DNA of 64,000 bases, taken from positions 30,347,902 through 30,411,901 of the forward strand of contig OU452198.1 of NCBI GenBank assembly GCA_911728435.2, written 5' to 3'. The DNA is from Apoderus coryli (lineage: Eukaryota; Arthropoda; Insecta; Coleoptera; Attelabidae). Position 1 is the first letter of the stretch. Every line of letters begins with the position of its first letter. A model generated the notes under the pieces. It was not told the origin of the DNA. It worked only from the letters and a program-made list of their open reading frames with translations, and did not search any database. Below, one piece after another: positions 4,075-59,858 of the stretch. The position numbers and the translations under genes are program-made.

Positions 4075-4188
4075 TTTTGGGCCGAGATGAATCTTTTAAG
4101 TTACTGTAAACAACACAAATAGCGCTCGTATGTCAAAACGTTCTGAGTACGTATAACCTCAAAAATGTACAACTTTACGATAGAGCTG

Positions 4189-8070: not shown

Positions 8071-8295
8071 CAAAGTCTTGTTACTTTATGTAACGAGCAA
8101 TTCACAAATAAAGTTTCCCGCTAGGGAATTCGGGCGCATCTAGTGTTGACAATAGGATATGATGGAGTTGTTGCTTCTCGTCCGGCCATCGTTTGTGAAC
8201 TTTTCACCGGGCATATTGCCTGCTCACACTAGATGTCGCCAAAAACATCTTGTTGACAGTAATATTGCCAAAGCTCAAAGTATAAATAATTGCCA
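8070..8295 (+). mobile_element. Retrozyme-family relic without ribozyme
   Basis: This stretch is about 85% similar by eye to 13455-13625. It shares the order of landmarks of the 333 bp array units at 46-48 kb: AGTCTTGTTA, then a CCCGCTAGGGAAT-type block, then a GCGCATCTAG block, and finally CTAGATGTCGCCAAA(A)ACATC. No hammerhead core (CTGATGA...GAAA) is present. I read it as an old truncated relative of the ribozyme-bearing units. The relationship is inferred from short matching blocks. Confidence 0.5.
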
Positions 8296-8439: not shown

Positions 8440-8930
8440 CTCAGATAGCGAGAAGTAGGTACACATCCAGCATTCAGAAAAGCTAAATTTTGTGTACGAA
8501 CTTTGGGTATCATATTATACGTCTTTGCCTTCTACCTAGAAATCTTGGGTCTACAATTACTCCAAGAAACTTATAAGTATTGTTTTCGCTAGTAAAAATT
8601 TTTACTAAGTGTAAAATCAATCCTCTCTGTTTTCAAGAATTTAAGAGACAGTACGTTAGAGGCAAACCAATTCTCAGCACTTTTTAATTTGGTTTGGATT
8701 ATGTTATTAAAATCCTCGGAAGCCTGGTAAATTGTGGTGTCGTCTGCATACTGAATTACTTGAGTATCCCTCAAAAAAGATGATAAGTCGTTGACATATA
8801 TAATAAATAAAAGTGGGCCAAGAATTGAGCCCTGGGGTACTCCGGTTGTCACAGGCCTTACTTCAGACCTCTCTCCCATATAGTCAACTAACTGATGTCG
8901 ATCACTCAAGTAAGATCTTTTGCTCTAATG
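8440..8930 (-). pseudogene. LINE reverse transcriptase fragment
   Basis: The minus strand encodes the palm of a Jockey/CR1-type non-LTR reverse transcriptase. It has [11 protein letters not shown], then [19 protein letters not shown], then an intact YADD catalytic motif. The best open piece is 8909-8589, and similarity continues in broken frames to about 8440. Both the endonuclease and the 3' end are missing, so it is a dead fragment. Confidence 0.85.
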
Positions 8931-10035: not shown

Positions 10036-13000
10036 GTGAGTAGAATAGAAATTTGTACATAAACTAAAGTGCGTGATCTGCCTGATTATTTAAAGCTCAA
10101 TAATACGTTTCTATTTTTAAGTGAGAAATAAAAGTCGAAACTCCGCGAAAAAAGTTTTTATCTCTCGCTTATAACACATTCACTCCACTTCAGTATGTAC
10201 TATTTCTTTACACTTTATTTGCTGACGACACAAATGTCTTATGCTCTGGTGCAAACTATGAATTGTTGGCTCAAAAAATTGAACTGGTGAATTTTCGATC
10301 TGACTAACAATTATTTGAAACTAAATTTGCACAAACTTACTTACTTTTTCTACAAATACCCGTTTGGTCAGAGGTGATTCCGTATAACTGTTGAGCTTTA
10401 CTCTTGATGAGGTAGTGCATATTGATGTCCTCAAGGATAAACTGTCCTCTAATATATTCGTCATCCGCAGAATGAGGTTGATCCTTGATCCATTCACTTC
10501 TCAACATCTATTATTATCTTCAGGTTACAGGCTAGCAGTAGGCCTGATCGATTTAGGCACAATACATAACGATTATATTGTAACAAATAAATATATATTA
10601 ACGAAATCCTTCAGAAATTCACTGAATCCAAGTTTATCTATTAATGTTTAACTAGATACTGTGAGATCGTTGCCATTAATTATCAATTGAAAATGATTTT
10701 TGTGTGTCAATTGCTTTTATTCTATTTTATTGGTTTAAATTTAATGAAGTTCTTCAAATAAAACTTCTCTGTTAGTCTAATATTATTTAAAAATCTTAGC
10801 AAAATAACATGAACAACGGTTCATCCTCATTGAAAGTGGCCATCATCGGACAGAGTCAATTCGCCGTAGATGTCATGGAAAAGATCACACAACATGGTCA
10901 TACAATTGTTGGTGTATTTACTTTGCCAGACAAAGGCAAGCGCGAGGATCCTTTAGGTAAGTATTAGCTAATGTAATAACCTTCTAGGAGTAGTATAGAT
11001 GTTATCTCAATATTTAAATGATGATAGAAATAGGGTAATGAATATTTAGAAAATAATTAAAATTTCAGTTATAGATGAATGAGTAGGTATATATATTGAG
11101 CCTTGGTAACATTTAAATGCAAAAGTGTCTTAATCATAAACGAGAATATTTTAAATAACAATAAAGCAAGTTTAAATTTTGATTGTTAGGCTCAAAATAT
11201 AAATAGTGACCCTCGTACTTTACAGCTATAAATGAAAAATAATTTTGTGGCGTAGCGGACAAAATGACTGGGGATTTTGTTTAATTTAGCAGGGCCCCAG
11301 TCTAATTTCAAATTCTAATAATAGTCGTTGCACATCTGCAATATCGGCTTGCATTTACGCCACAAATTAATTTTATAATTTTCAGCTATAGTTCCTTTAT
11401 TTTGTAGCCACCCCTCGTAGCGTAGGTATGTTGTTCTAATGTTTTTAACTTGTCCTAAGCCAGCAGGTATATAATTATTAACCTCCAAGGTCGAATTAGT
11501 TCTATTATACTTAATAAGTATCCATTACTGGGATTATTTTAAATACATATTATTACCTAAGTACTTTTCTTTTTATGTTTCTGAAATTTTTTGCACAATT
11601 CTGTAAAAAAAAATCCGGAATTTTTTAATTCTGACTTTTTTTACACAGTTCTGTAAAATAACTCAGAATTATGACTATTCTTACATTTTTTGCAGAATTC
11701 TGTAAAAAAACTCGGAATATCTTATCATTCTGACTTTTCTGTAAACCATCTCGGAATTTTTTAGTTCTGCCTTTTTTTTATACAATTCTGTAAAATAACT
11801 CAGAATTATGACTATTCTGACATTTTTTGCAGAATTCTGTAAAATAAACTCGGAATTTTTCAATTCTGACTTTTCTTACAGAATTCTGTAAAATAACTCA
11901 GAATTTGGTAAACGCTGGGAAAAGCAGTCAAAATTAAAAAATATATAAACTGTAAAAAATAAATATTTGCTATTTTATTTGACTTCGCATTCAAAAAACA
12001 CCCGATAAAATAGTACCTAAACAAAGGCGTTCGTCAAAAGTGTAAAATATGGGTTGTGTTAGCCTCAGCCCAAAAAATTTCCGGCGGTTAAACTATCGCC
12101 TCAATAATCTACCGTGGATGAAAACGCAATTTTCAAATGAAAAAAAATGCGATATATTATACAAAATCTTATTTTCCTTTCGGTTATACAAGGTGTTTCT
12201 AAAATATGTGGTCAAAATTTGTGAGTGAATTGGGGATCTGTAATCATGAAAAAAACCTAAATTGTAATTTTTCGAAAAGAGAAAAATTCGAGTTTGAAAA
12301 TTCTAGGACAAAACTGGTCCTTAGTACATACACAGCATTAATAACATTTTGGAAAACTTTTCGTTAGCAAACTGTATTTCAATATCAAAATAAACTCAAC
12401 AAAATTAAATAAATTTAACATAATTATTAATATTTAACAAAAATAAGTAATTTTAAGAAAATCAATAACAAACAATAATTATTTTTCAAAATTGCTGCTA
12501 TACAATTATTCACTCTAGAGCTTCAAAGAGTACACAATGCGCCTTAGTTTTTCTTCTGCAACAATTTGATTAAACGCATTACGTATTCTTTCCTGCAGTT
12601 GCTCGACATTTTCAATTGGCACTGTATAAACGTCTTTTACTTGACCCCAAACAGTAAAATCTAAAGGATTTAATTCAGGAGACCTAGCCGGCCAATTTTA
12701 GGAGCATCATTTCCATTTTCGTTTAACCACTAACGACATTTTCGTTTAACCACTAACGACACCGTCTACTATAATGTGGAGGGGCGCCATCATGCATAAA
12801 CCATAAAGAGGTTCGACGAGCCAAGGGAATATCTTCGAGGAATTGGAATTTGCGACAGAAGATTAAAATACATATCTCCAGTTAGATTTTCTGGGAAAAT
12901 GTGATAACCCAGCAGTTGATTTTCTAATGTTGAGGACCAAACATTTACTTTGAAAGAATGTTAATAATGAGTTACTTTTCTTGCATGAGGATTTCCATCA

Positions 13001-16000
13001 GCCCACACATGCTCATTATGCATGTTGAAAACCCCAATTCTGGTAAATGTGGCTTCGTCTGTGACTATAATATTAAAAAAAAACAATGGGTTTAGTTCTG
13101 TCATATCCAACATTTAAGTAGGTGAATAAATATGCTACATTTGATTAATTTATCTTTACTCGTTGCGCAAATATTTTAAAAAATCGTCCTCAGGTAGTTA
13201 TCTTTAACACCCTGTATCTTTGTAAATAAGGACTTTTCGAATAATTACAATTTACGAATTGCTTGTTACAAAAAGTAGCAAGACTTATAGTTATGTTGGA
13301 AATTTGTTTCACACTAGGTACCACGCTTTCACTAGACGTGCCGTTTTGTTGAACCACAGCTCATCAGTAGTTATCGGCAGGTAGTGTGACCCAAATTTCA
13401 AACATTTACGAAGAGTCATCTCTCGTACTAGTATAAGAACACGAGAGAGTTTATGTAACAAGCAATTCGTAAATAAAGCCTCCCGCTAGGGAATCCGGGC
13501 GCATCTAGTGTTGGCAATAGGATATAATGGAGTTGTTACTTCTTGTCCGGCCATCGTTTGTGAACTGTGTTGCACCGGGCATATTGCCTACTCACGCTAG
13601 ATGTCGCCAAAAACATCTCTTTGTCAATTACAATTTAGGTTTTTCATGATTACACGTCCCAAATTCGATCACAAATTTTTACCACCTATTTTCAAAACAT
13701 CTTGTATAACCTACAAAATTTGGGGAATAAAATTATTATACCTTATTATACAAAGGGCGAGAACTATGCTGCGATATAAATTTAGTACACATGCAGCCAT
13801 ATAAACAAATATACAAAAAATAGCAAGTGTATAACCATAAAATACTTTTTTTATTCAAAACTATAACTTATTCTAGATTAAATTAAAATACCAAGAATCT
13901 TACGATCATAAAATTTTCCGTATATACCACTGATTTTAGTAGTAATTTACAAAAATTTATATCCCACCAATATGGTGACGATTTTCAGCTATATTATTCT
14001 TTTAAATAGAGAGTTCTCAGGCAGAATGTGATCTTATAAATAACGACTTAAAAATAATATCTGAAGTCTCTAAGTGGCATGGTTTAAATTTGAATCCAAA
14101 CAAAACTAAAAATATTTATGCTGTTTGGTCGAAACTCCCAAAAACTTTTGAATGAAGATTAATATTATAAAATTAAAATACATAGTGTTGAAATATCATC
14201 GTCAGACACTTGTAAGAATCCTGGCGTTCTCATGGATAGGCACTTGCCATACGAGGATCATGTTGCTAAGCTATTAAGATTGGGATACTGTAAACTTAGA
14301 CTTTTGTATATGTCAGAGCATTTATTGGCTACTGATATAAAATTGAGACTGTGTGCTTCGATTCTTCTATCTGGATTGTCATACTCTGATGTTCTATATT
14401 GGTCGTGTCTCACAGTCACTAACAAAAATAGTCTTCAAAAAAATTTCAGGATTCATGCGTAAGATTTTGCTGTGGTGTTAGAAAGTTTGACCATATTTAA
14501 CCGTATTTTCAGTTGACAAATTGGTTAAATTTAGAAGAACGCTACTTTTTACACATAGCAACACTGTTATTCACAATAAATAAGTATATGCAGCCGGAGT
14601 GCTTATCTATATTTGCAAAGAAATTCAGATATTCATTGCCGAAATACAAGATACCGTAATCTTTTTGTTGTGCCTGGCCATGCCACTGCCTTGTTTCAGT
14701 GGTCGTTCTCCTACAATGCTGTAAATTTCTTTAATTCTATTCCACAAGATGTCAGAGACTGCTCCTCCTTAAACTCATTTAGGAAAAAAGTCAAAATATT
14801 TGTAATGAGTAAGATAAATTGATTTTTCTATTAAATGTGTATTGTAATGTATCTGAATTAAATTTTGTCTGTTTTTTTTATTGTTCCTTTGTATGCAAGA
14901 TTGTGATTGGATCGAATAGCGCAAGCTAGATTTCACGACGCTTTTATTTATTATTTGTACACTGTATTTTTGACTGAATAAAAGACTATATTATTATTAT
15001 TATTATTTGTGTTTTAAGTTTTAAAACATTAATATTATTGCTATAAAACTAGTGGATTTAGTTAAGACACTCTGTACACTGATTAAGCTTGGAGATATGA
15101 AACATTTTTACACAAACAAGAATTTAGAAGTCTCTAAAGTCACAAAAAGAGAAAGGAAATTAATTGTTATAAATTTAACCATGCTCAATGAAGTTCTAAG
15201 AAATTCGAAAATACCCAATATTATGCAAAACAAGAAACGATTTAATCAGTTCTAATCTCAAATTCAAAAGTAAATTTAAATAGCAATATAATGTATGCTT
15301 AGAGAAACCCTGGTTACACAATTTATGCGTCGTTCTCTTTAAAATCCCAAGTTACAACATCAAAAACTATAATGTTCAAATTAAAAAAAAATCTATCTCA
15401 AAATAATTCGGAGATATCATGAATCTGGTCAACCTGTTCTTTACAATTAACATGTTCATCATCAACCAGAAGAGAAAATTTTATTTATTTAAAAAATTCC
15501 TGATCCAATTAATATTTTCAAATTGTTGATATGTTTTAACATTTCGAGTTTTTCTACAGAATTCTGCAAAAAAAGTCCTAAAAAAATATTCTGTATGGTA
15601 CTTCTACGCTTCTGCACGTGATTTATGTCTATGCGGACAATAACACGTCTATTATACGTTACCGAAAATCGTAAGACATATTTTTGGATGTCATAATAAT
15701 CTTTCTTTCAGCTAAAGCTGCCGCTGAGATGGACATTCCAGTGTTCAAATTCAAAGCGTGGCGCAGCAAAGGCAAAGCTCTGCCAGAAGTATTAGAAAAA
15801 TACCGAAGCGTTAATGCTGATCTCAACGTCCTACCATACTGCTCACAATTCATCCCTATGGAAGTCATCAACCATCCCCCATTGAAAAGCATCGCTTATC
15901 ATCCATCCATATTGCCCAGACACAGAGGAGCTAGCTCAATCAACTGGTACTTAATTAGAATTATTCAAATAATAATAAGACCCTGCAACTTTATATCGTA

Positions 16001-19000
16001 TCCAATTTTCAGGACCCTTATCTGTGGTGACAAAAGAGGAGGTTTATCAATATTCTGGGCTGATGATGGTTTAGACACTGGCCCAATTCTCTTGCAAGAA
16101 GAATGTGAAGTCCTGGAAGATGACACTGTTGACAGTATCTATAAAAGATTCTTGTACCCTGTTGGTGTTAGTGCTGTAGCTAGAGCTGTTGATATGGTAG
16201 CACAGGGCATAGCTCCAAAGGTAGTTCAAAGTGAAAAAGGAGCTACTTATGATCCTATGCTTAATAAACCAGAACTCCAAAAGGTACATTTTGATTGCAC
16301 ACCCAATCTTTACTTTACTTTACCATCTATCTGTTTTCTCTAGATTGATTTCTCAAAATCTGGTAGAGACCTACACAACTTCATTCGTGGCATGGACTCA
16401 GTGCCAGGGGCAATGTGCAACATTAGAACACCAGGAAATGACCAATTCCAAGAAGCTCTTCTATTTGGATCATCTATGTGGAAAACTCCAATACCTATTG
16501 GTAAAGAGATTGAAATTGAAGGTACCACGCCTGGAATAATCCATGAGGAAGGTTTACTTTTACGTGGAAATGATGGAGAATACGTCAATGTCAAGAGAGT
16601 TAAAATTGGAGGTACGTTGAAATATTAAGTCAACGGAAACTTTCACGAGTGATATCCATTTAAATCTTGGATTCTAAGCTTTCGTACAATTATTGTCTAT
16701 AAAAATTATCCGATTTTTTTATGATAGGTCGCATGAAGAACGCAGCAACCATAGACCAAGTAGCCAAACAAATCACGCTTGAATATACTCCTGAAGAAAA
16801 GGCACAAATTGAAGCAATCCGAGATATATGGGAATCGATCCTAAATGTTGATATTGAAGAAGATACCGACTTCTTTGCAGCTGGTGCTGGATCCATGGAC
16901 GTAGTCAGGTAAGTAATCTAAACGAAAATTCTTGTAAATACTTGATATATGCTTTATTCTTTTTCAGACTAGTTGAGGAAGTAAAAGAAGTTTTCAAAGC
17001 AGAGTTAGAAAACGAAGACGTATTTCTTGCACCAACTTTTTCTGAATTCATTATACAAGTGGTTTTGAAGAGCAGAGGAGCAAACGAAGAAAAGATTATA
17101 AATTATCGGTAACTAGTTTTCATTTAAATCTGAATTTTACAAATGACTAACGTATGTAAATCACTTTGCAGACCAATTGAAATGGATATCAACAAAATGA
17201 AGATACGTTTCCCATGTCAATTATTTATTAACGGAGAATTCGTCGATGCTGAACATGGAAAAACTTTACCCACGATAAATCCAGCAACTGAGGAAGTCAT
17301 ATGTGATGTAAGTTGTCGTATTCTATTCTTAAGCCCTGTTCTCATTCTACCACTGAAACGGGCTACCAACTGTTCCGATTCTTAAATCCTCATCCAAGTT
17401 ATAGCTGCGTTTCACACAACCAACTTCAACTTCTACGGTCGTGACTAAATGCGTGACCTCATCTAGGTCACTAGCCATTCTACGACAACCCCTTTGTGGC
17501 TTAGATAAAAGCACCAAGCAAGAAACTGACAGAAGAAAACATATACACAAAATATTCCTTGGAAACCTCAACCACAAAAGAGCGGAAGCTTCTTTGGATA
17601 GCAGCAAGAACATGCGACTTATTCTTAGGAGATTTCTTACGGGACATTTTCGCCTCAGGAAAGAAGACGAAATCATTGTAACTTCACTTTACAAACTTCA
17701 TGGATCTCCAGTCACATTAGATATTCAGATCCAAATGGATCGTTATTTAAATCTTAAACTTTAATAGTCTACCTTCGTGTGAATCAAATTAAATAAATAT
17801 GTTCCTCTTCAGGTTCAATGTGCTTCACGAAATGATGTTGACAAAGCTGTTAAAGCTGCCAAAAAAGCATTTGAAGAGGGCGAATGGAGTAAGATCAGTG
17901 CTCGAGAACGTGGCCAACTTATGTTCAAGTAAGTTTGATTTTTCATTAGTCATCAGCTAATGAGTATGAATTACCTCAACTCAGGGATTTCTGGTGTGAA
18001 TCCTAAGATGGCTAAACCGACCGATCCTAATGTGTATTTACCGAAGGAAGATACTAAACCCAAACACCTTCAGCTGCATGCTGTTTTTCCACTTCACTAC
18101 ACCAGCATGTGTATGGACCCGACCGATTCGACCAAAAGATTTAATCTGGATTTCTTTTAATATGTTCACGTGCTGCTCACACAGTGATCATTGTTTTGAT
18201 TTAGTATCTTTCTTCGGAACATAAATCTGAAGCTTGTCTTCGTTAACTCGAATATGTGGTGCCACAGTGTTTGGTGCAGTCTGGTAGAGAATCTGTGTTT
18301 TCTTTATATTCAGGTCAAGCCCGATACTACTGTATGCGCTGACAATTGAAACTCGCGGATCTTAGCAGACACGGTTTCGGTATTCCATATTTTGTGTATT
18401 AGAACATGAGGATGTTCCAATATCTCTCGTCCTCCTTCTTTAAAAAGCGAAGGAGATATGCCATCAGAGCCAGCTGCTTTGTTGTTTGTTTTTAAGTTGA
18501 ATTTAATGATGAAGTGTATTTATATTTACCGTGTTCTATTGCTTTCAGGTTAGCTGACTTAATGCAGCAACACAAAGAGGAACTAGCCACAATCGAATCA
18601 ATTGATTCAGGAGCAGTTTATACTTTAGCTCTAAAAACTCATGTAGGAATGAGTATTGAAACATGGAGATATTTTGCAGGATGGACAGATAAGATCCAAG
18701 GATCGACAATACCTGTCTCACATGCCCGACCAAATAGAAATTTGAGTTTCACGAAAAAAGAGCCTATAGGGTAAGTTATTCACTAATTCCAGAAGACTTC
18801 ATAATAAAGAGAGATACCTAACAATTGTATGCCTATACTCTCAGGGTTTGTGGATTGGTAACACCATGGAACTATCCATTAATGATGTTGTCATGGAAAA
18901 TGGCAGCTTGTTTAGCAGCTGGAAATACCGTTGTTATTAAACCAGCCCAAGTATGCCCGCTGACTGCATTGAAATTTGCTGAACTATCTGCTAAAGCCGG

Positions 19001-22000
19001 TTTTCCTCCAGGAGTTATAAATGTCTTGCCAGGAACAGGTAAAATAATGTTATACAAAGGTAATTACAGTTTGCCTCTAATCTAATGTTGAACAGGAAGT
19101 GAGTGCGGAAACGCAATAGCAGCTCATCCACTAATAAGAAAACTTGGTTTCACTGGAAGTACAGAAATTGGACAAGTGATCATGAAAACTTGTGCAGATT
19201 CAAACTTAAAGAAAGTTTCTTTAGAATTGGGTGGAAAATCACCATTGGTTATATTTTCAGACTGTGACTTGGATAAAGCTGTGCGATTGGTAAGATAATT
19301 TTACAAACTACTTATTTTGATACAACTGCGTTATATCGCTTCCTTCTCCATCAATCAGGGTATGCAAAGTGTCTTCTTCAACAAAGGTGAGAACTGTATC
19401 GCAGCGGGAAGGGTGTTTGTTGAAGACAGCATTCATGATGAATTTGTTAGAAGAGTCATTTCAGAAACGAAGAAAATGGTAATAGGAGATCCTTTAAATC
19501 GATCCACGGCCCATGGACCACAAAATCATTACGCACACATGAAAAAATTGTTGGAATATGTAGAAACAGGTACGTACTCTAACATTATTTATTGAAACAC
19601 TAAATTAATATACGTAGCATTCAAATAAAAGGAAAATACTTCTTTGGTTCTTGAGTGTCATCATCATCAGTATTCAGTCGCTAACGAGTATGAATTATTA
19701 CTATAACTCAGGTATTTCTGTTGTGAACCCTAAGACTAAACTCACTCGAGTCTCGATCCAAAAATTACCACCATTTAACAGCTGTTGTTGTTTTATATAT
19801 TTATTGAAAGTTGGTTTATTAAATAAAACCCTTAACAAGCAATTAAGTATACTAGTTTTATTACTAATACAAAAGGAATGAACTGATGCAAAAATTATAA
19901 GCACATTGTACATCGAGAAAAATATAAAGCAAAGTGAGGTTAAAAACAAAAATGTTCTTCTTCTTGTAATATGTAAGAAATCACTCATTTCAAATAACAT
20001 ATTTCAACACCCTCCCTATTTGAAATAAGTCAAACCTTGTTCTTTTACACATCGTTTAAATTTTTGTCTGTCCAATGGTTTAGTCAACGAATCTGCTAAC
20101 ATTAAATTAGTTGGCACGTACTTTAAATTTATGAGCCCCGCACTGACTTTTTCTTTTAAAAAATGATATCGAACATCAATGTGTTTTGATTGATATGCAC
20201 CATTTAACGCGAGGTTCATCGCACCTTGATTGTCTATATTAAGTAAAACCGGAACGGAATTTACAAAAAGTTCACTGTTCAAACTACGGAGCCATAGAGC
20301 TTCTTGTACTGTAGATGACAGTGACATGTATTCCGCTTCAGTAGTACTGAGAGCCACAGTCGGTTGTTTCTTGCTATTCCAAGAGATTGGACACCCATTT
20401 TTGACAAAAATGTATCCTGTGACAGAGCGTCGATCTTCTTGATCATTAGCCCAGTCAGCGTCACAATATCCACTTATGTTTGGAACTGATTTAATATTAT
20501 TTCCATTAAATTCCAGTTTATAGTTTAACATACCTTTGATGTATCTAAATATACGTTTAACAGCTGCCCAATGTGCAATGCCCGGGTTGTGATTGAATCT
20601 GCTAACACAACTTACAGCATAACTTAAATCAGGCCTAGATACTTGTGATGCATAAAGAAGACTGCCCACTGCTTCTTGATATGGTATATTCTCCATTTTC
20701 AACTTATCTACACGATTGGTTGGGCACTGACTCTTCAACAATTTTTCACCAGGACATAACGGTGTATCTACTGTATTGGCAGTGTCCATCTTAAATTTTG
20801 TCAGTAATTTTTCCAAATACATTTGCTGGTCAATCCATATTTTCCTGTTAGGTCTATCTCGTACGATTCGGCAACCTAATATATGTTAGGCAGGACCAAT
20901 ATATTTCATCTTGAAATTCTGCATTAACGGACTCTTTATATCGGATTTGGCTGCTGTGCTGTTTGAAAAAATTAAAATGTCATCAACATAAATTGCTAAG
21001 ATTAGAATAAAATTTTCTGTGATTTTAAAGTAAATACAATTAACTTTTTTGCTTTGCTCTAATCCAACATTTTTAAGAAAAGCATCTAACTTTAAATTCC
21101 AACATCGGCTAGCTTGTTTGAGGCCATATAAGGACATCTTTAATCGGCAAACTTTATCTGTGTTACTGAAACATTCTGGAGGAAACATATACATTTCTTC
21201 ACTTAGGTCACCTTGGAGAAAAGCGGTAACAGCATCTAACTGGTCAATTTATAGATCATGTTCGGCTGCTAGTGACAAAAGATATCTTATTGAAGTATAT
21301 CGTACTACGGGGGAATAGGTTTGTTCGAAATCAATTCCCTTTTTCTATGCACATCCTTTGATGACTAATCTAGCTTTATGTTGTACGTGTTGATCATCTT
21401 TGATCTTGGTTTTAAAAACCCATTTACAATTTAATACCTTTTTACCAAGAGGCAAATCAGAGAGTTCCCAAGTACCATTTTCAATCAAGGAATTATATTC
21501 GCTTTTCATGGCCTGCATACAAAGATCCTTTTCTGGACGATTAAGGGCGTCTTCAACAGTAATCGCGTCGTCATCAGCTTGAATTACTGCTGAGTAAATT
21601 ACATAATAATTTTCATTGATTGTGGAACCCTTTTTGTTCGTTGTAACCTTGACGAACTAATTTCATCAATAGGATTTTCAATATCTGGATCATCTGGAAC
21701 AAAATCAGGATCAATTCCTTCCTCATCATATTCATCGGATGAACTGTGAATACTGTCTTGTGAATCATCATCATTGAGGAAAATAAAAAATATCTGTATT
21801 TTCCATTCCTTTATCTTCCAACAATGTACAACCTTTTTCATTTTCTATGAATTCCACATCACGTGCTAAAAATACTATGCCTTGTTCAGGATCGTATAAC
21901 CTATAATCCTTGGATTCAGAACTATATCCCACAAAAATGGACGGAGTAGCTTTAGGGTCTAACTTTTTCCTTTTTTGTGCAGGGACAAGCGCAAAGGCTT

Positions 22001-25000
22001 TACAGCCAAACATTTTGGTGTGCTTTACTGTAGGCTTTTTACCACTGAACATCTCTTCTGGTGTCTTGTCTACACATCTGGAAGGCAAACGATTTAATAA
22101 ATACACCGACACATTTACAGCCTCAGCCCAAAAAACATGTGGCAACGCTGCATATATTAGTAAACATCGAGCCTTTTCTATAATGGAACGATTTAAGCGT
22201 TCTGCTTTGCCATTCTGTTCTGCAGTATAAGGTACTGATGCTGAATGCCTGCATTTTTTAATAAGTTCTGAGTTGCAATACTCTTTACCGTTGTCGGTTC
22301 TGATACATTTGATCTTTTCACCTGTTTGGTTTTCGACAAAATTCTTGAACGCCTTAAAATATTCACAAACCTGACTTTTATGTTTCAAAAGATAAATAAA
22401 AGTTTTGTGACTGAAATCATCTAGAAACGTCAATACATATTGTGAACCAGACAAGGACTTCTCTTGTATAGGCCCGCATAAATCAGAATGGATCAATTCC
22501 AGAACTCTAGTTGATGAAGATTGACTAGCCTTAAATGGTTGTCGGTGACTTTTTCTCAGAATACAAATTTCACATACAAAATCTGACGGAACTGTATTTT
22601 TACAGTCAAAACCATCCACAAATCCATTTTTAAGTTTGTTAAGACTAACTGAATTGACATGTGCTAAACTACGGTGCCACAAATAATACTCATCAACAGG
22701 AGACATACTTAATATGGCAGAACCTCCTTCAGATGAAAACATATTAAGTTTAAATAAATGGTTCTCATGTGTAGCAGTTGCAATAACTTGTTTAAACTGA
22801 TATAAGATTTTTGCGCCCTCGGAGTCAAAAATAACTGTGTTGCCTTTCTTCACGATTTGACTGACTGACAACAGATTGACTTTTAAATTAGGAACAAAAT
22901 AAACGTTACTTACTGCGACATCAGAAGTTTTCTTGTTAATATTTACAGACAAGTTTATTTTACCAATTGTATCAGTATCCATTTTTTCATCAATTGCAGT
23001 ACGTATAGTTAGCTTACTAGTTTTTCTGGAATCTTCAAGTATATCAGGACTTGATGTCATATGAGCGGAACATTCTGAGTCTAAATACCATACAATTTTA
23101 TTTTCTTGTACTGAAAAAGCTGAAAGTAATGCGGCAGAGTGTTTAGAACTAGGTATTACTATCACTTTTTGTCTCTTTCTTTTTATCACAGTTGTTGGCA
23201 AAATGTCCATAACGATTACAATTGTACCAACGAAAGCCTTTGTTTTTATTATTCGCGCTATTTGTTTGTTTCGATGTCTTTTTGTGTTTGCTATAACCCG
23301 AGTTAGCACTTTTGTTATAACCAGAACCGGAAGAACCATAAAACGCAAGAGATTTATTATCTGTTTCATTCGCGACGACTGATATGTCTTGAAGTAACTT
23401 AGTTTTTATTGTATCAGCTGTAACAGTTACGCCCGAACTTTCAATACCCATTATCATCGGTTTATAATGATCTGGAAGACCCGCTAACAAAATTGTACCT
23501 ATCCACTCATCACTAACGATTAAACCAATGTTTGAAAGTTTATGTGCAGTTTCACGATTTTATTTACAAAGTCTTCAACTGAACTGCTGTCTTCTAACTT
23601 TGTAGTTATTAGATTACGGAGTAGACTCGTCTGGTTAACCCCGTATCCTGAAAGGCTGTAGCAAGGTTATCCCAGGCTTCTTTGGCGGACGTTGTAGTCT
23701 GAACGTGTACATAATTTAGATGATCTACTAGCAGTATTATTTTAGATCTTGCCTTAGTTATTTTATTGGTATTATCATCTGTACCTAATATCGCGTCCCA
23801 TAATTATTCATGCTCTAGATATGTTTGCACAGCGAATTTCCAAGTGTCGTAATTTTCACGGCCCTTTAATTTTTCTATAGGAGGTAACTGATACGACATA
23901 ATGAAGAAACTGTTCGCGACCAATTGCCAATTTCACTTAAACCAACTTTTCAAGCAAACTGTAATATCTGGGCCCATAACCTGTTGTTTTATATATTTAT
24001 TGAAAGTTGGTTTATTAAATAAAACCCTTAACAAGCAATTAACTATACTAGTTTTATTACTAATACAAAAGGAATGAACTGATGCAAAAATTATAAGCAC
24101 ATTGTACATCGAGAAAAATATAAAGCAAAGTGAGGTTAAAAACAAAAATGTTCTTCTTCTTGTAATATGTAAGAAATCACTCATTTCAAATAACATATTT
24201 CAACAGCTGTTGTAGGTGCGCTGCCCCATCTATGCGTTCTCTCTCAGTTCTCTCTCCTTTCGATGCTGTCTCTTCACATCCTCATGTCGTCGACGCTGCT
24301 CTTTAAAAACTTGATGACTCTCGTAAATGGTACGCCTCCATCTCGGTCGGTCGATCGCTATCTGCTCCCAGCTGTTCTTCACATCTAAGCCACACTTCTT
24401 CATGTTGGTCTGAGGAACATCTTAGTACTTTTAGCTGTCCTCCCTGATTTCATGAGCCAACCTTAAGCTGTGAATGAAAGATTCTCTTGGGAAGGCATTC
24501 CGTTGGCATGCCGATTACGTGGCCAGTCTATCACAACTCAATCATCTCCTCAATGCTAGTTGTTTCAGCTTCCTCCAGAACGGTGATGTTTGTTCGTCGG
24601 TCCTGCCATTTAATTCCAAGAATTCTTCTAGACTCACAGCTATACCTAAGGGTAGAAACTACAATACACTCGCAACTTAGCTCTAACGTTGATGTTATGT
24701 TTATCGAAGACTCTCGTCCTCAGTCGACCAAAATATGCGCTTGCCCATCTTATACGATGCTGAATCTCATCATCGATATTTCCGTTCGCCGTGAGAATGC
24801 TGCGGAGGTAAGAGTAACTCTCGATGTTCTGAAGCCTGTCTCCGTTAACTCGAATATGTGGTGGGACAGCCACAGTGTTTGGTGCAGGCTGGTAGAGAAT
24901 CTGTCTTTTCTCTATATTCAGTTCAAGCGTTGTTAAATGCATTTAGTATATAGTGAAGATCCTCTTCTGTATCAGCTAGGACAACATTGTCATCCGCGTT

Positions 25001-30990: not shown

Positions 30991-31502
30991 GACGTTAAAT
31001 AAATGATATAATATTAATACCCCTTAAACAAAACAATTTTATTTAAATGTTGCCGTATGCTAAGTGATTTATCTATTTTATTTTTACTTAAATAATACAT
31101 CGTGGTATTAACGTATTTAGTCGCAATAGATTTGATCAGTAAATATCTATAGTTATCAAACACTGATTGATCAAAACCGTGCACAACTAAATTAGGAAAA
31201 ATATTACTATTTACAAATTCCTTTAAAGCTAGCTTTATTATTAATTCTGCAGACAACTTTTCATTAGTAGCTACTATACGATTTTTTATGATCTTTTCGC
31301 ATTGGAAACAAACGCCTAGAACATCTTTTGAAGAAATTTGTAAACCCTTTTTTGCTGTCATTTTAATAATGCATCTTGACATTCTCCGCAAATACTTTGC
31401 TACTTTAAACTAAAAACTACAAATCCAGCAATATTAACAATAATGAATTTCGAAAATTCAGAAAATGGTCCAGGAATGTAATCATGATCTGGATAAATTG
31501 TT

Positions 31503-31660
31503 GCTTGTTACATAAAGTAACAAGACTTTTAGTTACGTTGGAAATTTGTTTCACACTACCATGCTTTCACCAGACGGACCGTTTCGTTGATCCACAACTC
31601 ATCAGTGGTGATCGGCAGCCAGTGTGACCCAAATTTCCAACATTTACGAAGAGCTTATTG
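31503..31660 (-). mobile_element. Retrozyme-family fragment with hammerhead
   Basis: Begins GCTTGTTACATAAAG, like the 13260 copy and like the start of the array units at 46-48 kb (GCTTGTTTAACAAAAC). It ends near ACATTTACGAAGAG. It lies between the two parts of the P-element relic, which dates its insertion after that element. I could not fix a target-site duplication. Confidence 0.6.
31537..31641 (-). ncRNA. Type I hammerhead ribozyme, core intact
   Basis: On the minus strand the stem I strand CACCA leads to CTGATGA. Stem II is GTTG-TGGAT-CAAC, followed by GAAAC. A very short stem III (ACGG/CCGT) comes next, and then the GTC cleavage triplet with the return strand TGGTG. The outer stem I pairs GTTGGAAATTTG with CAAATTTCCAAC. 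All invariant core bases are present. It should cleave after the GTC if folded; activity is inferred. Confidence 0.82.
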
Positions 31661-33330: not shown

Positions 33331-33585
33331 TTTCCAAAAATTGCTTCATTTTAATAAACAAAATTGTCATAATTTCATAAGGAGACATTTTTTGAAATTT
33401 TGACATAAGTGATTTTCGTCGTATTCTTGGTCGTATATTCTATTTTTTGGGACACCGTGTATATATAGAAATTTTGATTAGCTTTTGGCCTCCGTTTTTG
33501 CTCTGCAAAAATTAATTTTTTGTTTGGGGGTATATAAAACAGTGTATGTAAATAACTGATTAATTATTTACAATTATTTTTTCAG

Positions 33586-34674
33586 GAATTGAAAACGAAA
33601 AGATTGAAACGCCATGCCCGCCCTATTGACGGCGAGGCAAAACAAATTGAGGAAAAATCCGTACTACACATCAATAACCCAGTCGACTACCAAGGCAGAT
33701 CATTTCTACACCCCCCGCAAGATTTTGGAGTCAATTTGCGTTCAGACACACCTCCAACCAAATTCTTCCTACCGAAGGCCCATATCCATACCTGGTCGGG
33801 ACACACCAACGGCGTTTCCGCAATTGCGTGGTACCCACGTACCGCACATCTCTTACTCTCAGTTGGCATGGATTGTAAAATCAAATTATGGGAAGTGTAT
33901 AATGAAAGAAGATGTATTAGGACGTACTATGGTCATCGACAAGCTGTTAGGGACATCAATTTCGATAACAACGGCAAAAGATTCTTATCGGCAGGATACG
34001 ATAGATATATTAAGTTATGGGACACTGAAACGGGACAAGTATTATCCCGATTTACAAGCAGAAAGATCCCATATTGTGTTAAATTCAATCCTGATAAGAA
34101 CAAGCAGCATTTGTTTGTTGCTGGAACATCAGATAAGAAAATTATATGTTGGGATATTCGGTCGGGTGATGTAGTTCAGGAATACGATAGGCATTTAGGG
34201 GCAGTTAATTCGATTACTTTCGTAGATGACAATAGACGATTTGTCACGACATCCGATGATAAATCTCTGCGTGCGTGGGAATGGGACATTCCGGTTGATA
34301 TGAAATACATCGCAGACCCTCAAATGCATAGTATGCCATCTGTAACTCCATCACCAAACGCCAAATGGTTAGCGTGCCAAAGCATGGACAATAAAATAGT
34401 GATATTTTCGGCGATGAACCGGTTTAAGATTAACCGGAAGAAGACATTCTCTGGTCATATGGTTGCGGGATATGCGTGTACGTTGGACTTTTCATCAGAC
34501 ATGAGTTATTTGGTGTCTGTTGACGCAGATGGAAAGTGTTTTATTTGGGACCGGAAAACAACAAAATTGTACAAGAAATGGAAAGCACATGTTAATTAAG
34601 TTAAGTTAATTAAGAATGAACCCAGTAAATTGGTAACGGCGGGTTGGGATGGGTTAATTAAGTTTTGGGATTAA
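33586..34674 (+). pseudogene. CDC40: CDC40/PRP17 C-terminal WD40 part, in-frame stop
   Basis: CDC40 (PRP17) is a spliceosomal WD40 protein needed for the second splicing step. From an acceptor at 33584-33585 the frame runs through GRSFLHPPQDFGVNLRS and PKAHIHTWSGHTNGVSA. Several WD repeats follow, such as DCKIKLWEVY, YDRYIKLWDTETGQ, SDDKSLRAWEWDIP and DKKIICWDIRSGD. A TAA at 34597-34599 interrupts the last repeat. The same frame resumes as EPSKLVTAGWDGLIKFWD and ends at 34672-34674. About 12 conserved residues are replaced by nine codons, including the stop. There is no ATG at the start of the exon, and the N-terminal exons (about 240 residues) are not visible between 30137 and 33585. It is either the terminal exon of a gene whose first exons lie elsewhere, or a decaying partial duplicate. 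Confidence 0.88.
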
Positions 34675-45560: not shown

Positions 45561-46397
45561 AATAATTTTTAAAAGTTCATCAAAGTTCATGACTCTAGCA
45601 TCGGTATTGTACCTAATAGACAAATTGCAAAGTCAACAAAGTAAAGTTATAAATATTGTTGTAACAGGAAGTTACGGGGGATTTTGATTTGCACTTCGGT
45701 GTAGTAAAGATTAAAGAGAGTGGTTGGAGACTTGGCGTCTCGGACCATGAAGTCTCCCCGCGTTGGAGCACATATGTGTCCGAATGCTCCGCCAGGTTCT
45801 CTAACCACAAAACTCTCTTTTTTGGGGTTCTTGAGTAGTGTCATTTAAGTTTTACGGTTTATCAACGCGAAGTTATAATTTAGTATTAATATTAATAATT
45901 CTGAACGTTTCTTTTAAACTAAAAAAAAAAGATCAGCTATGTCGAGGATCATGTTTAAAATGTGAGTACCAAATTTTTAATTATTATAATTATTACTAGT
46001 TTTTAATAATTCTTTTTCCCTTAAATTGATACTTCTTATCTGATTTAATTATATTTTTTGTGTGACAATATGTGCTCAACGAAAATTTAAAACTAAACTA
46101 CACGGCAAATGAAGTGAGATATGAAAAATTGCATAATTTTAAAAAAACTATAGGTATACTTCGACATTTCTTTGCCGATGTTGCGTTTTCAGCCAGGATT
46201 ATAAAGCGCTATCGTTGGACTGTGTCGAACTGGTGTAACATATTTCTTTCTTTCGACCCTTCCCTTTCTACAGGGTTTGAATGCAACGTAGCGAAAAATT
46301 TGGAAATTTTCTAAAATTTTGATTTTCTTAAATTAAAAAGAGTTAAACTAAATAATAAGATAAAATGGGCTTGTTTAACAAAACAAGACTTAAAATC

Positions 46398-46499
46398 CGA
46401 GAGTTTGTCTGTCAACCACTATACTTTCACCAGACGGCCGTTTCGTCGATCCACGACTCATCAGTGGTGATCGGTCAGTAGTTGACAGCCAAACTCTCG
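46398..46499 (-). ncRNA. Hammerhead ribozyme 1
   Basis: On the minus strand: outer stem I CGAGAGTTTG/CAAACTCTCG and CTGTCAAC/GTTGACAG, inner stem I CACCA/TGGTG, core CTGATGA, stem II GTCG-TGGAT-CGAC, GAAA, and a tiny stem III ACG/CGT with GC between. Cleavage is expected after GTC, between 46433 and 46432. The internal loops of stem I (11 nt each) offer the loop contacts that natural hammerheads use. Confidence 0.87.
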
Positions 46500-46730
46500 T
46501 AAATAATGTGGTATATACCCCACACGGAACAGAGATGTAAAAGGATGTGTTTGGCGACATCTAGTTTTATCGTTGGTAGTACGCCGAGTGAACAACAGTT
46601 CCTATTTCGGCTGCCTGGGAGGTCTCTGACCCCATAAAGCTACTACCAACACATAGACGCGCCGATACTCCCTTAAGCGGGATCGCATATATTTAAAATG
46701 GGCTTGTTTAACAAAACAAGACTTAAAATC

Positions 46731-46832
46731 CGAGAGTTTGTCTGTCAACCACTATACTTTCACCAGACGGCCGTTTCGTCGATCCACGACTCATCAGTGG
46801 TGATCGGTCAGTAGTTGACAGCCAAACTCTCG
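46731..46832 (-). ncRNA. Hammerhead ribozyme 2
   Basis: Same sequence and fold as ribozyme 1, exactly 333 bp further on, with an intact core. Confidence 0.87.
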
Positions 46833-47178
46833 TAAATAATGTGGTATATACCCCACACGGAACAGAGATGTAAAAGGATGTGTTTGGCGACATCTAGTTT
46901 TATCGTTGGTAGTACGCCGAGTGAACAACAGTTCCTATTTCGGCTGCCTGGGAGGTCTCTGACCCCATAAACAAGCCCATTTTAAATATATGCGATCCCG
47001 CTTAAGGGAGTATCGGCGCGTCTATGTGTTGGTAGTAGCTTTATGGGGTCAGAGACCTCCCAGGCAGCCGAAATAGGAACTGTTGTTCACTCGGCGTACT
47101 ACCAACGATAAAACTAGATGTCGCCAAACACATCCTTTTACATCTCTGTTCCGTGTGGGGTATATACCACATTATTTA

Positions 47179-47280
47179 CGAGAGTTTGGCTGTCAACTAC
47201 TGACCGATCACCACTGATGAGTCGTGGATCGACGAAACGGCCGTCTGGTGAAAGTATAGTGGTTGACAGACAAACTCTCG
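47179..47280 (+). ncRNA. Hammerhead ribozyme 3
   Basis: Same ribozyme on the plus strand. The core CTGATGA is at 47214-47220. Expected cleavage is after position 47245. Confidence 0.87.
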
Positions 47281-47511
47281 GATTTTAAGTCTTGTTTTGT
47301 TAAACAAGCCCATTTTAAATATATGCGATCCCGCTTAAGGGAGTATCGGCGCGTCTATGTGTTGGTAGTAGCTTTATGGGGTCAGAGACCTCCCAGGCAG
47401 CCGAAATAGGAACTGTTGTTCACTCGGCGTACTACCAACGATAAAACTAGATGTCGCCAAACACATCCTTTTACATCTCTGTTCCGTGTGGGGTATATAC
47501 CACATTATTTA

Positions 47512-47613
47512 CGAGAGTTTGGCTGTCAACTACTGACCGATCACCACTGATGAGTCGTGGATCGACGAAACGGCCGTCTGGTGAAAGTATAGTGGTTGAC
47601 AGACAAACTCTCG
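47512..47613 (+). ncRNA. Hammerhead ribozyme 4
   Basis: Plus strand, 333 bp after ribozyme 3, identical by reading. Expected cleavage is after 47578. Cleavage at both this site and the previous one would release a 333 nt RNA. Confidence 0.87.
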
Positions 47614-47844
47614 GATTTTAAGTCTTGTTTTGTTAAACAAGCCCATTTTAAATATATGCGATCCCGCTTAAGGGAGTATCGGCGCGTCTATGTGTTGGTA
47701 GTAGCTTTATGGGGTCAGAGACCTCCCAGGCAGCCGAAATAGGAACTGTTGTTCACTCGGCGTACTACCAACGATAAAACTAGATGTCGCCAAACACATC
47801 CTTTTACATCTCTGTTCCGTGTGGGGTATATACCACATTATTTA

Positions 47845-47946
47845 CGAGAGTTTGGCTGTCAACTACTGACCGATCACCACTGATGAGTCGTGGATCGACG
47901 AAACGGCCGTCTGGTGAAAGTATAGTGGTTGACAGACAAACTCTCG
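47845..47946 (+). ncRNA. Hammerhead ribozyme 5
   Basis: Plus strand, 333 bp after ribozyme 4. Expected cleavage is after 47911. The remaining partial unit to 48137 has no ribozyme. Confidence 0.87.
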
Positions 47947-49204
47947 GATTTTAAGTCTTGTTTTGTTAAACAAGCCCATTTTAAATATATGCGATCCCGC
48001 TTAAGGGAGTATCGGCGCGTCTATGTGTTGGTAGTAGCTTTATGGGGTCAGAGACCTCCCAGGCAGCCGAAATAGGAACTGTTGTTCACTCGGCGTACTA
48101 CCAACGATAAAACTAGATGTCGCCAAACACATCCTTTTAAATAATAAGATTTTAGAAAATTGACAAAAATTCCCGAGGAGTCGATTTAGTGATTCATTCA
48201 ACATCAGAAAGAACTTCTTTATGACTTCGAAACAAATGTAAAAAATTTATTATTTATTTAACTTCGCCGATGTTGAATTTTCAGCCAGGATTATAAAGCA
48301 CCATCCTTGAACTGTGCCGAACTGGTGTAACATATTTGTTTTCCTTTTGACTTCCGTCAAAACAGGGTTTGAATGTAAGGCAGCGAAAAATTTTGGATTT
48401 TTTGGCAAAGAATTTGTTGAAAATGGGTGGCTCACCCTGGCTGAAAATTCAACATCGGCAAAGAAATTTATTATTTATTTAACTTCGACATTTCTTTGCC
48501 GATGTTGAATTTTCAGCCAGGGTGAACCACCCATTTTCAACAAATTCTTAGTCAAAAAATCCAAAATTTTTCGCTGCCTTACATTCAAACCCTGTTTTGA
48601 CGGAAGTCAAAAGGAAAAAAAATATGTTACACCAGTTGGGCACAGTTCAAGGATGGTGCTTTATAATCCTGGCTGAAAATTCAACATCGGCGAAGTTAAA
48701 TAAATAATAAATTTTTTACATTTGTTTCGAAGTCATAAAGAAGAACCATCAGTTATAAGAATTATTAGCTTCCAAAGGGTGACAAAAGTAGAAGGGAAAT
48801 GATTGATTTATTTCGAAGAAATATCATACCCCCATGTGCAAATAGAGTTGGCAACTTTAGCTGTACCGACCGTAGATTTAGACTAGTTTGCCTTTGTTTT
48901 GGCATGAAAATTGGGCCCACGGTTTTGGATAAACACATTCACTGTACTTATATTTTATCAGTCGCAGAAATAAGAGAGCAAAAACACCTAGGTATATTTT
49001 GTAAAAATTATTACCTACGTATTAATTTGTACAAATACAATTTTTATTGTTCCTCTATGCATTAAAAATGTTGACCTTATAAAACTTACCTTTTTCTATC
49101 TCGATGGCACTATTAATTTCCATATCTTCAGTTTCATCACATACAGCTAGACTCATTATTTTTTTCGTACGCGATTGTATATTCATTTTAAATTATATGC
49201 TACT

Positions 49205-49285: not shown

Positions 49286-49829
49286 CTTGTCCTACATACA
49301 TAAACATATACAGAAAATGATCTCGCTTTGTCATACTTTCAAATTGATCTCGCTTTGTTGGGATTTTATGACCAAAAATTAAAAAGTAAAAATTCTTACC
49401 CCTCTGGGGGGGTAGCGATTACCAATACTTTTTAAGCTATAGGTATGCAAGATATACGCAGAAATTGTGATTCATTCAAGTGGATCTCAGGTTGTCTTAG
49501 AAATATCCGGATCTCGACTTAGTTCAAAAACACATATATATATATGAAACTTCCAAAATTTAAGAAAAAAATTTTTTTAGAAAATTCACAAAATTTGTCG
49601 CTGTTTTGCATTCAAACCCTGTCGAAAGGGAAGGGTCGAAAGAAAAAAATATGTTACACCAGTTCGACATAGCCAACGATGGCGCTTTATAATCCTGGCT
49701 GAAAATTCAACATCGGCAAAGAAATGTCGAAGTATATAGTTTTTCAAAATTATGCAATTTTTCATATCTTCATTTGCTGTGTAGCTTAGTTTTAAATATT
49801 CGTTGAGCACATATTGCTTTGTTTCATTT

Positions 49830-58203: not shown

Positions 58204-58860
58204 TTAAGTAACAAGACCTAAAAATCTTTGAACATCCGCAACATTTTCCGGTCTCGGCATATTTTTTATAGCCGAAACCTTCGAATAATCTGGGGTCAAA
58301 CCTACGTTAGAAATTCTATGTCCCATATACTTTACTTCATTTAACGCGAACTGACATTTAGTTTTATTGAATCTAATATTATTTTTAGCTGCCTCCTTCA
58401 ATACTGACTCTAACCGTTCATTATGTTCTTCTAAAGTTTTACCCGATACTATGATATCATCAATATAAACGCCCGAACCCTCTATATGACCAAAAATTTC
58501 ACTCATCCTTTCCTGAAATACTTTTGGAGCGCTAGAAATCCCATAGGGCATGCGTAAAAACCTATATCTCCCGAATGGAGTCGCAAAAGTACACAATTTG
58601 GAACTATATTCATCTAAGTGTATCATTAAAAATCCCTGAGTCGCATCAAGGGTGGTAAAATACTCTGATCCGCCCACTTTAACTGCTAACTCGTCTATTG
58701 TTGGAAGGTGGAAATAGTGCCGTTTTATTGCCCTGTTTAAATCTTGAGGATCCAAGCAAATTCTCAAGTCCCCAGTACTCTTCTTTACTATCACAATTGC
58801 ATTTACCCATTCTGAACTTTCATTTGTTTTTTCGATAATATTGTTTTCAACTAGGTTATC
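58204..58860 (-). pseudogene. Gypsy reverse transcriptase
   Basis: Shows LRICLDPQDLNRAIKR, TLDATQGFLMIHLD and FLRMPYGISSAPKVFQ. The catalytic YIDD is intact, followed by KCQFALNEVKYMGH. It is frameshifted at both ends. Confidence 0.92.
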
Positions 58861-58880
58861 CAGAGAACTCTTAAGTTTAT

Positions 58881-59858
58881 CTACAATTGCAAAGGAACTT
58901 TTCTAGGAGGGTGCACAACCGGAGTTGCATTCTCTCTCAATTCAATGTGATAAGGCCTATTAAGTGATCCTATTCCTTTAAACAAAAAATCATATTTCCG
59001 TAAAAGATGCTCTACTTCGTTTGTTTTGCTAAGATTATCATAGCTAACAGAATCTACTTTCTTTATCAAATTTAAATCTAAACAAGCCTTCAAGCCCAAT
59101 ATCGCGCTACTTTGAAGGTTGTCCACATAAAACAAAAGCCGTGCCTCTTTATCATTGCAAATACATTTCAAATAAACACTACCTATTATAGGCAGAGAAT
59201 CCTGTGTATATGACTTTAAAACTGTTTTAGTTTTATTTATTTTATTACAATCAAAATTTATACCCTTTAGTGTTTCCACAGGTATGATGTTGGCCATCGC
59301 TCCACTGTCTAGTTTAAACTGCACGTTATGTCCGTTTATATTGAGTATTTTCACCCATGTTCCCTCACATATGCTGTCAACTGCCTGGCTTTCGATGCTA
59401 CCTATAAATAGAAAATCATCAGCAGCATCGTCGTCTTTACTTTCAGCAATAGCATTAATTCTTTTATTTTTATTATTCTTGTTAAAATGTTTACGTTTTT
59501 CGTAATAATTCTTGCCAAATCTATTTATTCTACCTTCCTTATCTAGAACAGGTTTTGAATATCTATTATTAAAAGAGTTACCAACAGTACTATTTTTATT
59601 ATTATTAGAAAAAGTTTTTCTACATACCACCGCGAAATGATTGTATCCATTGCAGCTGCTACACTTCTTGCCATAGGCCGGACATCTCCCAAAACCATGG
59701 ACTTTTCCACATTTCTGACATGTTGAAACAGTGTTGACGGCGTCCACTTTAATCGTACCACGACCATTTGTTATCGCTCTGCTTCTTTCACGTGTCTTCT
59801 CAACGTTTATACAGATTTTAATAGCATCTTCAAGAGTTTGTGGATCTTCTTGGAGCAA
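58881..59858 (-). pseudogene. Gypsy gag zinc knuckles and protease
   Basis: Contains two zinc-binding knuckles (CQKCGKVHGFGRC and CSSCNGYNHFAVVC), a Lys/Asn-rich linker and a retropepsin with LDSGAMANIIP. It leads to the RT start (HPPRKVPLQL), where the frame is lost at 58881. Confidence 0.9.

Follow-up and report, generated by a model that had tools for sequence, protein, structure and literature searches.

The driver of animal retrozymes, and the role of circular RNAs as their template, are treated as open questions in the cited passages of three papers (PMC7229834, PMC7761336, PMC11722881). The first names long interspersed nuclear elements (LINEs) or Penelope-like elements (PLEs) as the driver, with PLEs a strong candidate put forward without insertion evidence; the second describes the repeats as having no motif that tells which driver is used, and the third, a review of late 2024, still gives both. 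On the PLE side, excerpts of two studies are pertinent: in one, a PLE protein in purified form cleaves the two strands of its target and extends each of them, with an internal start at two adjacent sites and a preference for AT-rich DNA (PMC11167929); in the other, genomic PLE copies stand head to head between target-site duplications (TSDs) of 8-10 bp, with a tail sometimes present at one end of the inverted pair (PMC3846280). Among the open-licence papers that our searches listed, no title or abstract opening concerns inverted retrozyme insertions or fixed retrozyme end points. Here we describe an array of hammerhead-bearing units at positions 46362-48137 of a 64,000-nt stretch (the window) of the genome of the beetle Apoderus coryli (contig OU452198.1), together with its relatives and the PLEs of the same genome.

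The array is almost certainly a metazoan non-LTR (long terminal repeat) retrozyme. That class is already known; the insertion anatomy reported here is new to us and well supported, and from it we conclude that the array was probably inserted by Penelope-like machinery. Taken together, end points, inverted layout and TSD length can be read as a signature connecting retrozymes with PLEs, and they point to exact candidate start positions on the 333-nt RNA.

The array is a two-armed insertion of type I hammerhead units

A first-pass annotation had described the array as one tandem run with five intact ribozymes. The units do repeat with a 333-bp period and 100% identity, but they run in two directions and not as a single tandem array: the minus-strand arm holds two ribozymes and the inverted plus-strand arm holds three (Table 1). 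The boundaries proposed for the insert enclose exactly the stretch between both copies of a 13-nt TSD. As had been claimed, all five ribozymes have an intact type I core (CTGATGA, GAAA and GTC); the GTC triplets that place predicted cuts after 47245 and 47578 were recovered, and there is a further one at 47911. A covariance search with the type I model, suggested at the same time, matched 5/5 ribozymes (Rfam Hammerhead_1, 33.8 bits, E 3.6e-6 on a 1.9-kb stretch), yet at a score just short of the curated cut-off of 34, which is why a default Rfam scan of the window lists no hammerhead. Within its clan, the type I model gives the best match, and the array hammerheads do not class as plant-type (type III).

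Stem I had been credited with two 11-nt internal loops; strict pairing instead gives sides of 10 and 10 nt, most of which are closed in the predicted fold, and this long stem has a much more stable predicted fold than shuffled sequences (z -8.4). Stem III is minimal, with the 8-nt palindrome ACGGCCGT, and the earlier suggestion that a dimer may be needed is sound: the predicted fold with an open ribozyme core has -42.1 kcal/mol, compared with -50.8 kcal/mol for the best fold, which makes it plausible that the ribozyme acts as a dimer or is helped to fold, as reported for amphibian retrozymes (PMC7229834).

The identity of the array as a retrozyme is backed by the Rfam match, the unit size, the tandem copies, the TSD, and stem changes that preserve pairing in an older relative at 31494-31653 (K31), where GTCG/CGAC of stem II has become GTTG/CAAC and CTGTCAAC/GTTGACAG of outer stem I has become TCACAC/GTGTGA. 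The unit fits the metazoan non-LTR retrozymes, a known class. The array contains no frame of at least 110 aa, and so lacks the reverse transcriptase (RT)/GIY-YIG open reading frame of an autonomous PLE; the GC fraction is 0.42 over 46001-48000. A plus-strand transcript of the array could release two full 333-nt monomers and a minus-strand transcript one. We also note that a transcript spanning 46362-48137 could form a perfect 611-bp hairpin, which might be a source of small RNAs against the family. Rfam microRNA and sRNA matches at the array junction and at PLE centres were rejected as hairpin effects of inverted repeats, and a scan of viral contigs for the ribozyme gave no match.

Outer ends and target-site duplications are fixed across the family

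In the 428-Mb genome, 40 loci were analysed, comprising the array and L031-L069 (clusters grouped by eye among the matches listed, for which 40 of 1200 candidates were scored, and picked irrespective of inversion; L001-L030 lie outside the analysis). An outer end was assigned to site A if it fell within unit coordinates 64-90 and to site B if it fell within 220-245, windows that were set after the first arm mapping had been seen, and TSDs were searched with a slack of 12 nt. Two loci are duplicates (L045 and L046) and three share flanks (L035, L050 and L054); none of these is among the 18 loci with one end of each kind described below. Loss of core bases in other copies had been named beforehand as an observation that would count against the ribozyme. 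For this subfamily the outcome is favourable: the 40 loci contain 101 ribozymes identical to the 44-nt sequence of the window, the array's five included. The core is lost in the older copy at 13326-13395, where GAAA reads AAAA. An Rfam family search of the genome yielded 4 matches among the best 73 of 52198 candidates and is uninformative on copy number.

Inverted pairs of arms are present in 26/40 loci, with the 3' ends pointing outward in 26/26; none of the remaining 14 is inverted in the opposite sense. Sorted by outer ends, the inverted loci comprise 18 A+B, one A+A, no B+B, four with A and another end, and three with B and another end. Where both ends could be classified, 18 of 19 inverted loci are thus A+B (P(≥18/19) = 3.8e-5 if the ends were independent and equally likely). 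The 14 single-arm loci have their outer end at A in 10 cases and at B in 4.

A TSD of 12-14 nt flanks 17/18 A+B loci (mean 12.9, n=17), and none of the eight other inverted loci has one of at least 8 nt. Over the whole set, TSDs of at least 12 nt were found in 18/40 loci, compared with 1/1560 mismatched flank pairs, and the duplicated sequences are 85% A+T as against 66% for the window. When the ends of the 17 loci are corrected for the TSD, site A narrows to unit coordinates 68-74 (median 71) and site B to 226-234 (median 229). Altogether 59/66 outer ends lie in the A or B window, and 0/66 lie within 10 nt of the ribozyme cut. In the predicted circular fold of the unit, the two sites are mostly open stretches, one on each side of a hairpin spanning 92-226, with mean unpaired probabilities of 0.67 and 0.74 compared with 0.35 over all positions.

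The inner junctions behave otherwise: all 24 that could be placed by script differ from locus to locus, often with a few shared bases. Some are complex, as in L059 (short extra pieces in both orientations), L033 (a third small arm) and L047 (a 23-nt overlap).

A second subfamily, with a 337-nt unit, was found with an older copy in the window (K13) as query, and 21 of its loci were mapped with a TSD slack of 14 nt: K13 itself, L097-L108, chosen by an inverted query and biased accordingly, and L109-L116, chosen by body match only. Inverted arms with a TSD of at least 9 nt were seen in 11/21 loci, and in nine of these (L097, L098, L100, L105, L106, L110, L113, L116 and K13) the ends lie +76-79 and +224-240 from the ribozyme cut. 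Of the other two, L104 is mosaic and L107 departs from these positions at one end. Within L109-L116, 4/8 loci are inverted, and all four have one end of each kind. For K13 there is also a pre-insertion paralogue (12182-12279, minus strand) consisting of ~10 nt of left flank, the 12-nt TSD once and ~75 nt of right flank; because it runs uninterrupted across the insertion point, both K13 arms probably entered in one event. The K13 composite was itself considered as a replicating unit, given continuous matches in the K13 search, and was dropped on the finding that inner junctions differ between loci.

Penelope-like elements of the same genome share the layout

PLEs were sought through their GIY-YIG domain, with the best 150 of 1260 candidates scored and pairs counted by eye. 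Among these 150 matches, 18 pairs within ~5 kb are arranged minus-then-plus and none plus-then-minus; the right arm of one pair (L117) has a 774-aa frame with RVT_1 (2.1e-15) and GIY-YIG (4e-6) domains. We examined 15 of the 18 pairs, chosen because they were inverted, with a TSD slack of 14, 25 or 45 nt depending on the pair set. One short and one long end were found in 13/15, and TSDs in 14/15, all of 12-14 nt (mean 12.6, n=14) and hence in the same range as those of the retrozyme. For the PLE-1 family, 12/13 pairs have a short end, ~+50 from the hammerhead cut, together with a long one at ~+84, and L070, L072, L073 and nine further pairs combine such ends with a 12-14-nt TSD. L075, from a second GIY-YIG family, has unequal ends ~38 nt apart and a 12-nt TSD. 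Ahead of the PLE-1 ends is a weak minimal hammerhead, which at 18.3 bits is far under the cut-off.

It is because the insertion layout of the retrozyme matches that of these PLEs that a Penelope-type enzyme is proposed as its mover, and the retrozyme would then travel, in this genome, as a non-coding passenger of the PLEs. A 7-mer, CGCCAAA, spotted by eye 12-20 nt before site B of the retrozyme and likewise before the long end of PLE-1, was not judged significant. Three non-inverted GIY-YIG loci (L076-L078) were left unused; short divergent direct repeats lie beside L076 and L077.

Both arms of an insertion resemble copies of one template

Arms longer than one unit are the rule (52/69), the longest measuring 2254 nt, and an arm can represent up to 6.8 rounds of the unit. 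The two arms were compared in 24 two-arm loci, arms under 60 nt being dropped: within loci they differ at 59/6238 positions, compared with 4762/226386 between loci. In the window's array, L032, L034, L048 and L064, 17/17 locus-specific variants are present in both arms; these five differ least internally (at most 2 per kb), a cut-off that was set post hoc and is not independent of the count. Two more loci, L036 and L052, have shared variants only (3 and 4, respectively). We read this pattern as one RNA copied from both ends, followed by mutation, and a circle would be the simplest such template.

A model for insertion and its alternatives

These observations can be arranged into a putative pathway. 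The transcript of an existing copy would be cut by its own hammerheads into 333-nt RNAs, which would form circles. A putative PLE protein would cut both strands of AT-rich DNA 12-14 nt apart, a spacing given by the observed TSD lengths, and each freed DNA end would start reverse transcription inside the RNA, one at A (68-74) and the other at B (226-234); the end points are as mapped, and the open stretches flanking the body hairpin, with which the starts would coincide, are predicted. Each enzyme would then run round the RNA up to 6.8 times, as the arm lengths indicate, presumably on a circle and not on an uncut multimer. Finally, the two DNA strands would be joined head to head at the variable points seen in the junctions, often via a few shared bases, to give an inverted array with its 3' ends outward. 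A circular template seems to us somewhat more likely than not. We lean, by a little, towards a more general proposal as well: the circular RNA would be the template of a Penelope-type enzyme, the halves of whose complex would enter at two fixed points flanking one hairpin and copy the circle for several rounds from both strands of one cut, writing it both ways at once, and metazoan retrozymes would be obligate parasites of PLEs, made of non-coding circular RNA.

LINEs, too, are known for inverted arms, TSDs and inner-junction microhomology; in LINE-type twin priming, the LINE RT would begin at the 3' end of the RNA on one strand and, on the second strand, at an internal match. The 15-bp TSDs of Nematostella retrozymes have been likened to those of LINEs in a cited passage of PMC4918200. 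Twin priming is nevertheless an unlikely explanation here: the same-genome PLEs show the same TSD range and unequal ends, and its second start is variable, whereas both starts in the retrozyme are fixed to within 9 nt over 17 loci. A closer competitor retains the PLE machinery but replaces the circle with a long, uncut multimeric transcript. Copies made in this way would also be homogeneous if the source array were, and in excerpts of PMC11167929 ribozyme mutants are reported to match the wild type for insertion in vitro. We regard such a template as possible but doubtful, given that arms of up to 2254 nt extend from the same starts and cross the ribozyme cut unbroken, which would require seven uncut units, and that metazoan retrozymes are described as abundant circles (PMC7229834, passages cited).

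Identical head-to-tail units also look satellite-like, and a plain tandem satellite, generated by unequal exchange or DNA rolling circle and later inverted, would account for them. This is highly improbable, as the inverted layout recurs in 26/40 loci, the A+B loci among them have fixed outer ends and TSDs, the mismatched-flank control gave only a single long TSD, and the K13 paralogue suggests that both arms came in at once. Perfect inverted repeats are, moreover, a known assembly hazard, and fold-back reads could in principle have made the inverted arms. That the anatomy is an artefact of this kind is scarcely credible when TSDs are present, when no two of the 24 placeable inner junctions are alike, and when two retrozyme subfamilies and the PLEs have the same anatomy.

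Several results weigh against insertion of a circular retrozyme RNA by Penelope-like machinery. With regard to the ribozyme, the array scores 0.2 bits below the curated cut-off, and the predicted folding of ribozyme cores taken alone is no stronger than that of shuffled sequences (z -1.25 and -0.93). With regard to the insertions, 22/40 loci lack a TSD of at least 12 nt, 7/66 outer ends lie outside the A and B windows, and two inverted loci without a clear TSD have two ends of one kind (L053, A+A; and L108 of the 337-nt subfamily, B+B). Among the PLEs, L071 has one truncated arm, and the TSD search was negative for L074, a relative of L075; the two start sites of the retrozyme are separated by ~158 nt, those of PLE-1 by 34 nt, and BLAST of the retrozyme unit against nine PLE loci (L070-L078) gave no match, shared sequence not being a known requirement. 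According to the cited passages of PMC11167929, the PLE start site showed no difference between the strands, and for that reason this enzyme does not by itself account for the rule of one end of each kind; the same passages give uncut RNA as the main PLE substrate and ribozyme cleavage as dispensable in vitro, which does not favour a cut, circularised template. Lastly, of the locus-specific variants in all 24 two-arm loci, 43 are shared by the two arms and 59 are confined to one (32 and 34, respectively, when only the 16 A+B loci with a long TSD are counted); we tentatively read the one-arm variants as later mutations.

Other features of the window

Three older relatives of the array, overlooked in the first pass, lie elsewhere in the window (K13, K31 and K8; Table 1). 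The array itself may sit inside an older inverted-repeat element, as suggested by related inverted pieces at 46066-46310 and 49566-49816, and a fold-back element at 48214-48743 has 254-nt arms that are 98% complementary and 22 nt apart. Two exons of host genes were recognised, one at 15675-16343 with a formyltransferase domain (PF00551) and the other, of PRP17/CDC40, at 33556-34599; for the latter, the named matches among the best 34 proteins are all from beetles, with 81-85% identity by eye. RT domains (PF00078) at 58204-58902 and 8589-8924 belong, by eye, to a Gypsy-like element and a LINE fragment, and two frames resemble, by eye, a mariner-type transposase (3443-4722) and a Copia-type polyprotein (20016-23405), the latter having no Pfam match in its piece 20016-20885.

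Table 1. Retrozyme features of the window (TSD, target-site duplication)
Feature	Position	Strand	Remark
Whole retrozyme insert, 5.3 copies of the 333-bp unit in two head-to-head arms	46362-48137		
Left TSD copy TAAATAATAAGAT, 13 nt	46349-46361	+	
Right TSD copy TAAATAATAAGAT, 13 nt	48138-48150	+	
Left arm, 610 nt, 1.8 units	46362-46971	-	Outer end at unit coordinate 71 (site A)
Right arm, 1166 nt, 3.5 units	46972-48137	+	Outer end at unit coordinate 226 (site B)
Inner arm junction	46968-46971	+	4-nt microhomology/overlap TAAA
Hammerhead ribozyme 1	46427-46470	-	Rfam 33.8 bits
Hammerhead ribozyme 2	46760-46803	-	Rfam 33.8 bits
Hammerhead ribozyme 3	47208-47251	+	Rfam 33.8 bits; predicted cut after 47245
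Hammerhead ribozyme 4	47541-47584	+	Rfam 33.8 bits; predicted cut after 47578
Hammerhead ribozyme 5	47874-47917	+	Rfam 33.8 bits; predicted cut after 47911
Predicted body hairpin of one unit (unit 92-226), between sites A and B	47337-47471	+	Circular fold of unit
K13, older-subfamily copy	13255-13625		Minus-strand ribozyme arm (core broken) and plus-strand body arm
K13 TSD AATTACAATTTA, 12 nt	13243-13254 and 13626-13637		
K31, older-subfamily copy	31494-31653	-	Single ribozyme arm, intact core; outer end near site A
K8, older-subfamily copy	8073-8258	+	Body arm alone; outer end near site B

Comparison with known systems

The plant LTR retrozymes are similar in principle, in that hammerhead-cut RNA circularises and is moved by another element, but they differ in having a type III hammerhead, LTRs and a 4-bp TSD (PMC4918200, cited portions). 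The hammerhead repeats of schistosomes are likewise short, with type I hammerheads and one reported TSD case; in the excerpts of PMC8490949 and PMC4918200 they carry a full tRNA, whereas a tRNA scan of this window was empty. The satellite or retrozyme hammerheads of newt and axolotl, as portrayed in part of PMC7229834, have a unit of ~330 nt, a weak helix III and a palindromic loop, with cleavage as a dimer likely, all of which recall the array; they come from another host and are likened here by description, the passages cited containing no insertion anatomy.

The metazoan non-LTR retrozymes of Cervera and de la Pena (2020; PMC7229834) are the class to which the array is most similar: as far as the cited text goes, they share with it type I hammerheads, tandem units of ~170-400 nt, low GC, no coding sequence seen, TSDs of more than 4 bp and the presence of PLEs in the same genome. 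What differs is the insertion anatomy, since that text describes tandem copies only, and head-to-head arms and fixed ends are absent from it.

With respect to PLEs of the Penelope/Poseidon type, the retrozyme differs in having no RT or endonuclease gene, in its longer canonical hammerhead, and in end points that are ~158 nt apart compared with ~30-40 nt; the TSDs of PLEs in this genome (12-14 nt) in turn differ from the 8-10 bp given in the cited part of PMC3846280. The features held in common, taking the PLE side from the passages cited (PMC11167929, PMC3846280), are head-to-head insertions with TSDs and an extra tail at one end, an apparent internal RT start with a hammerhead upstream of the start sites, and AT-rich targets.

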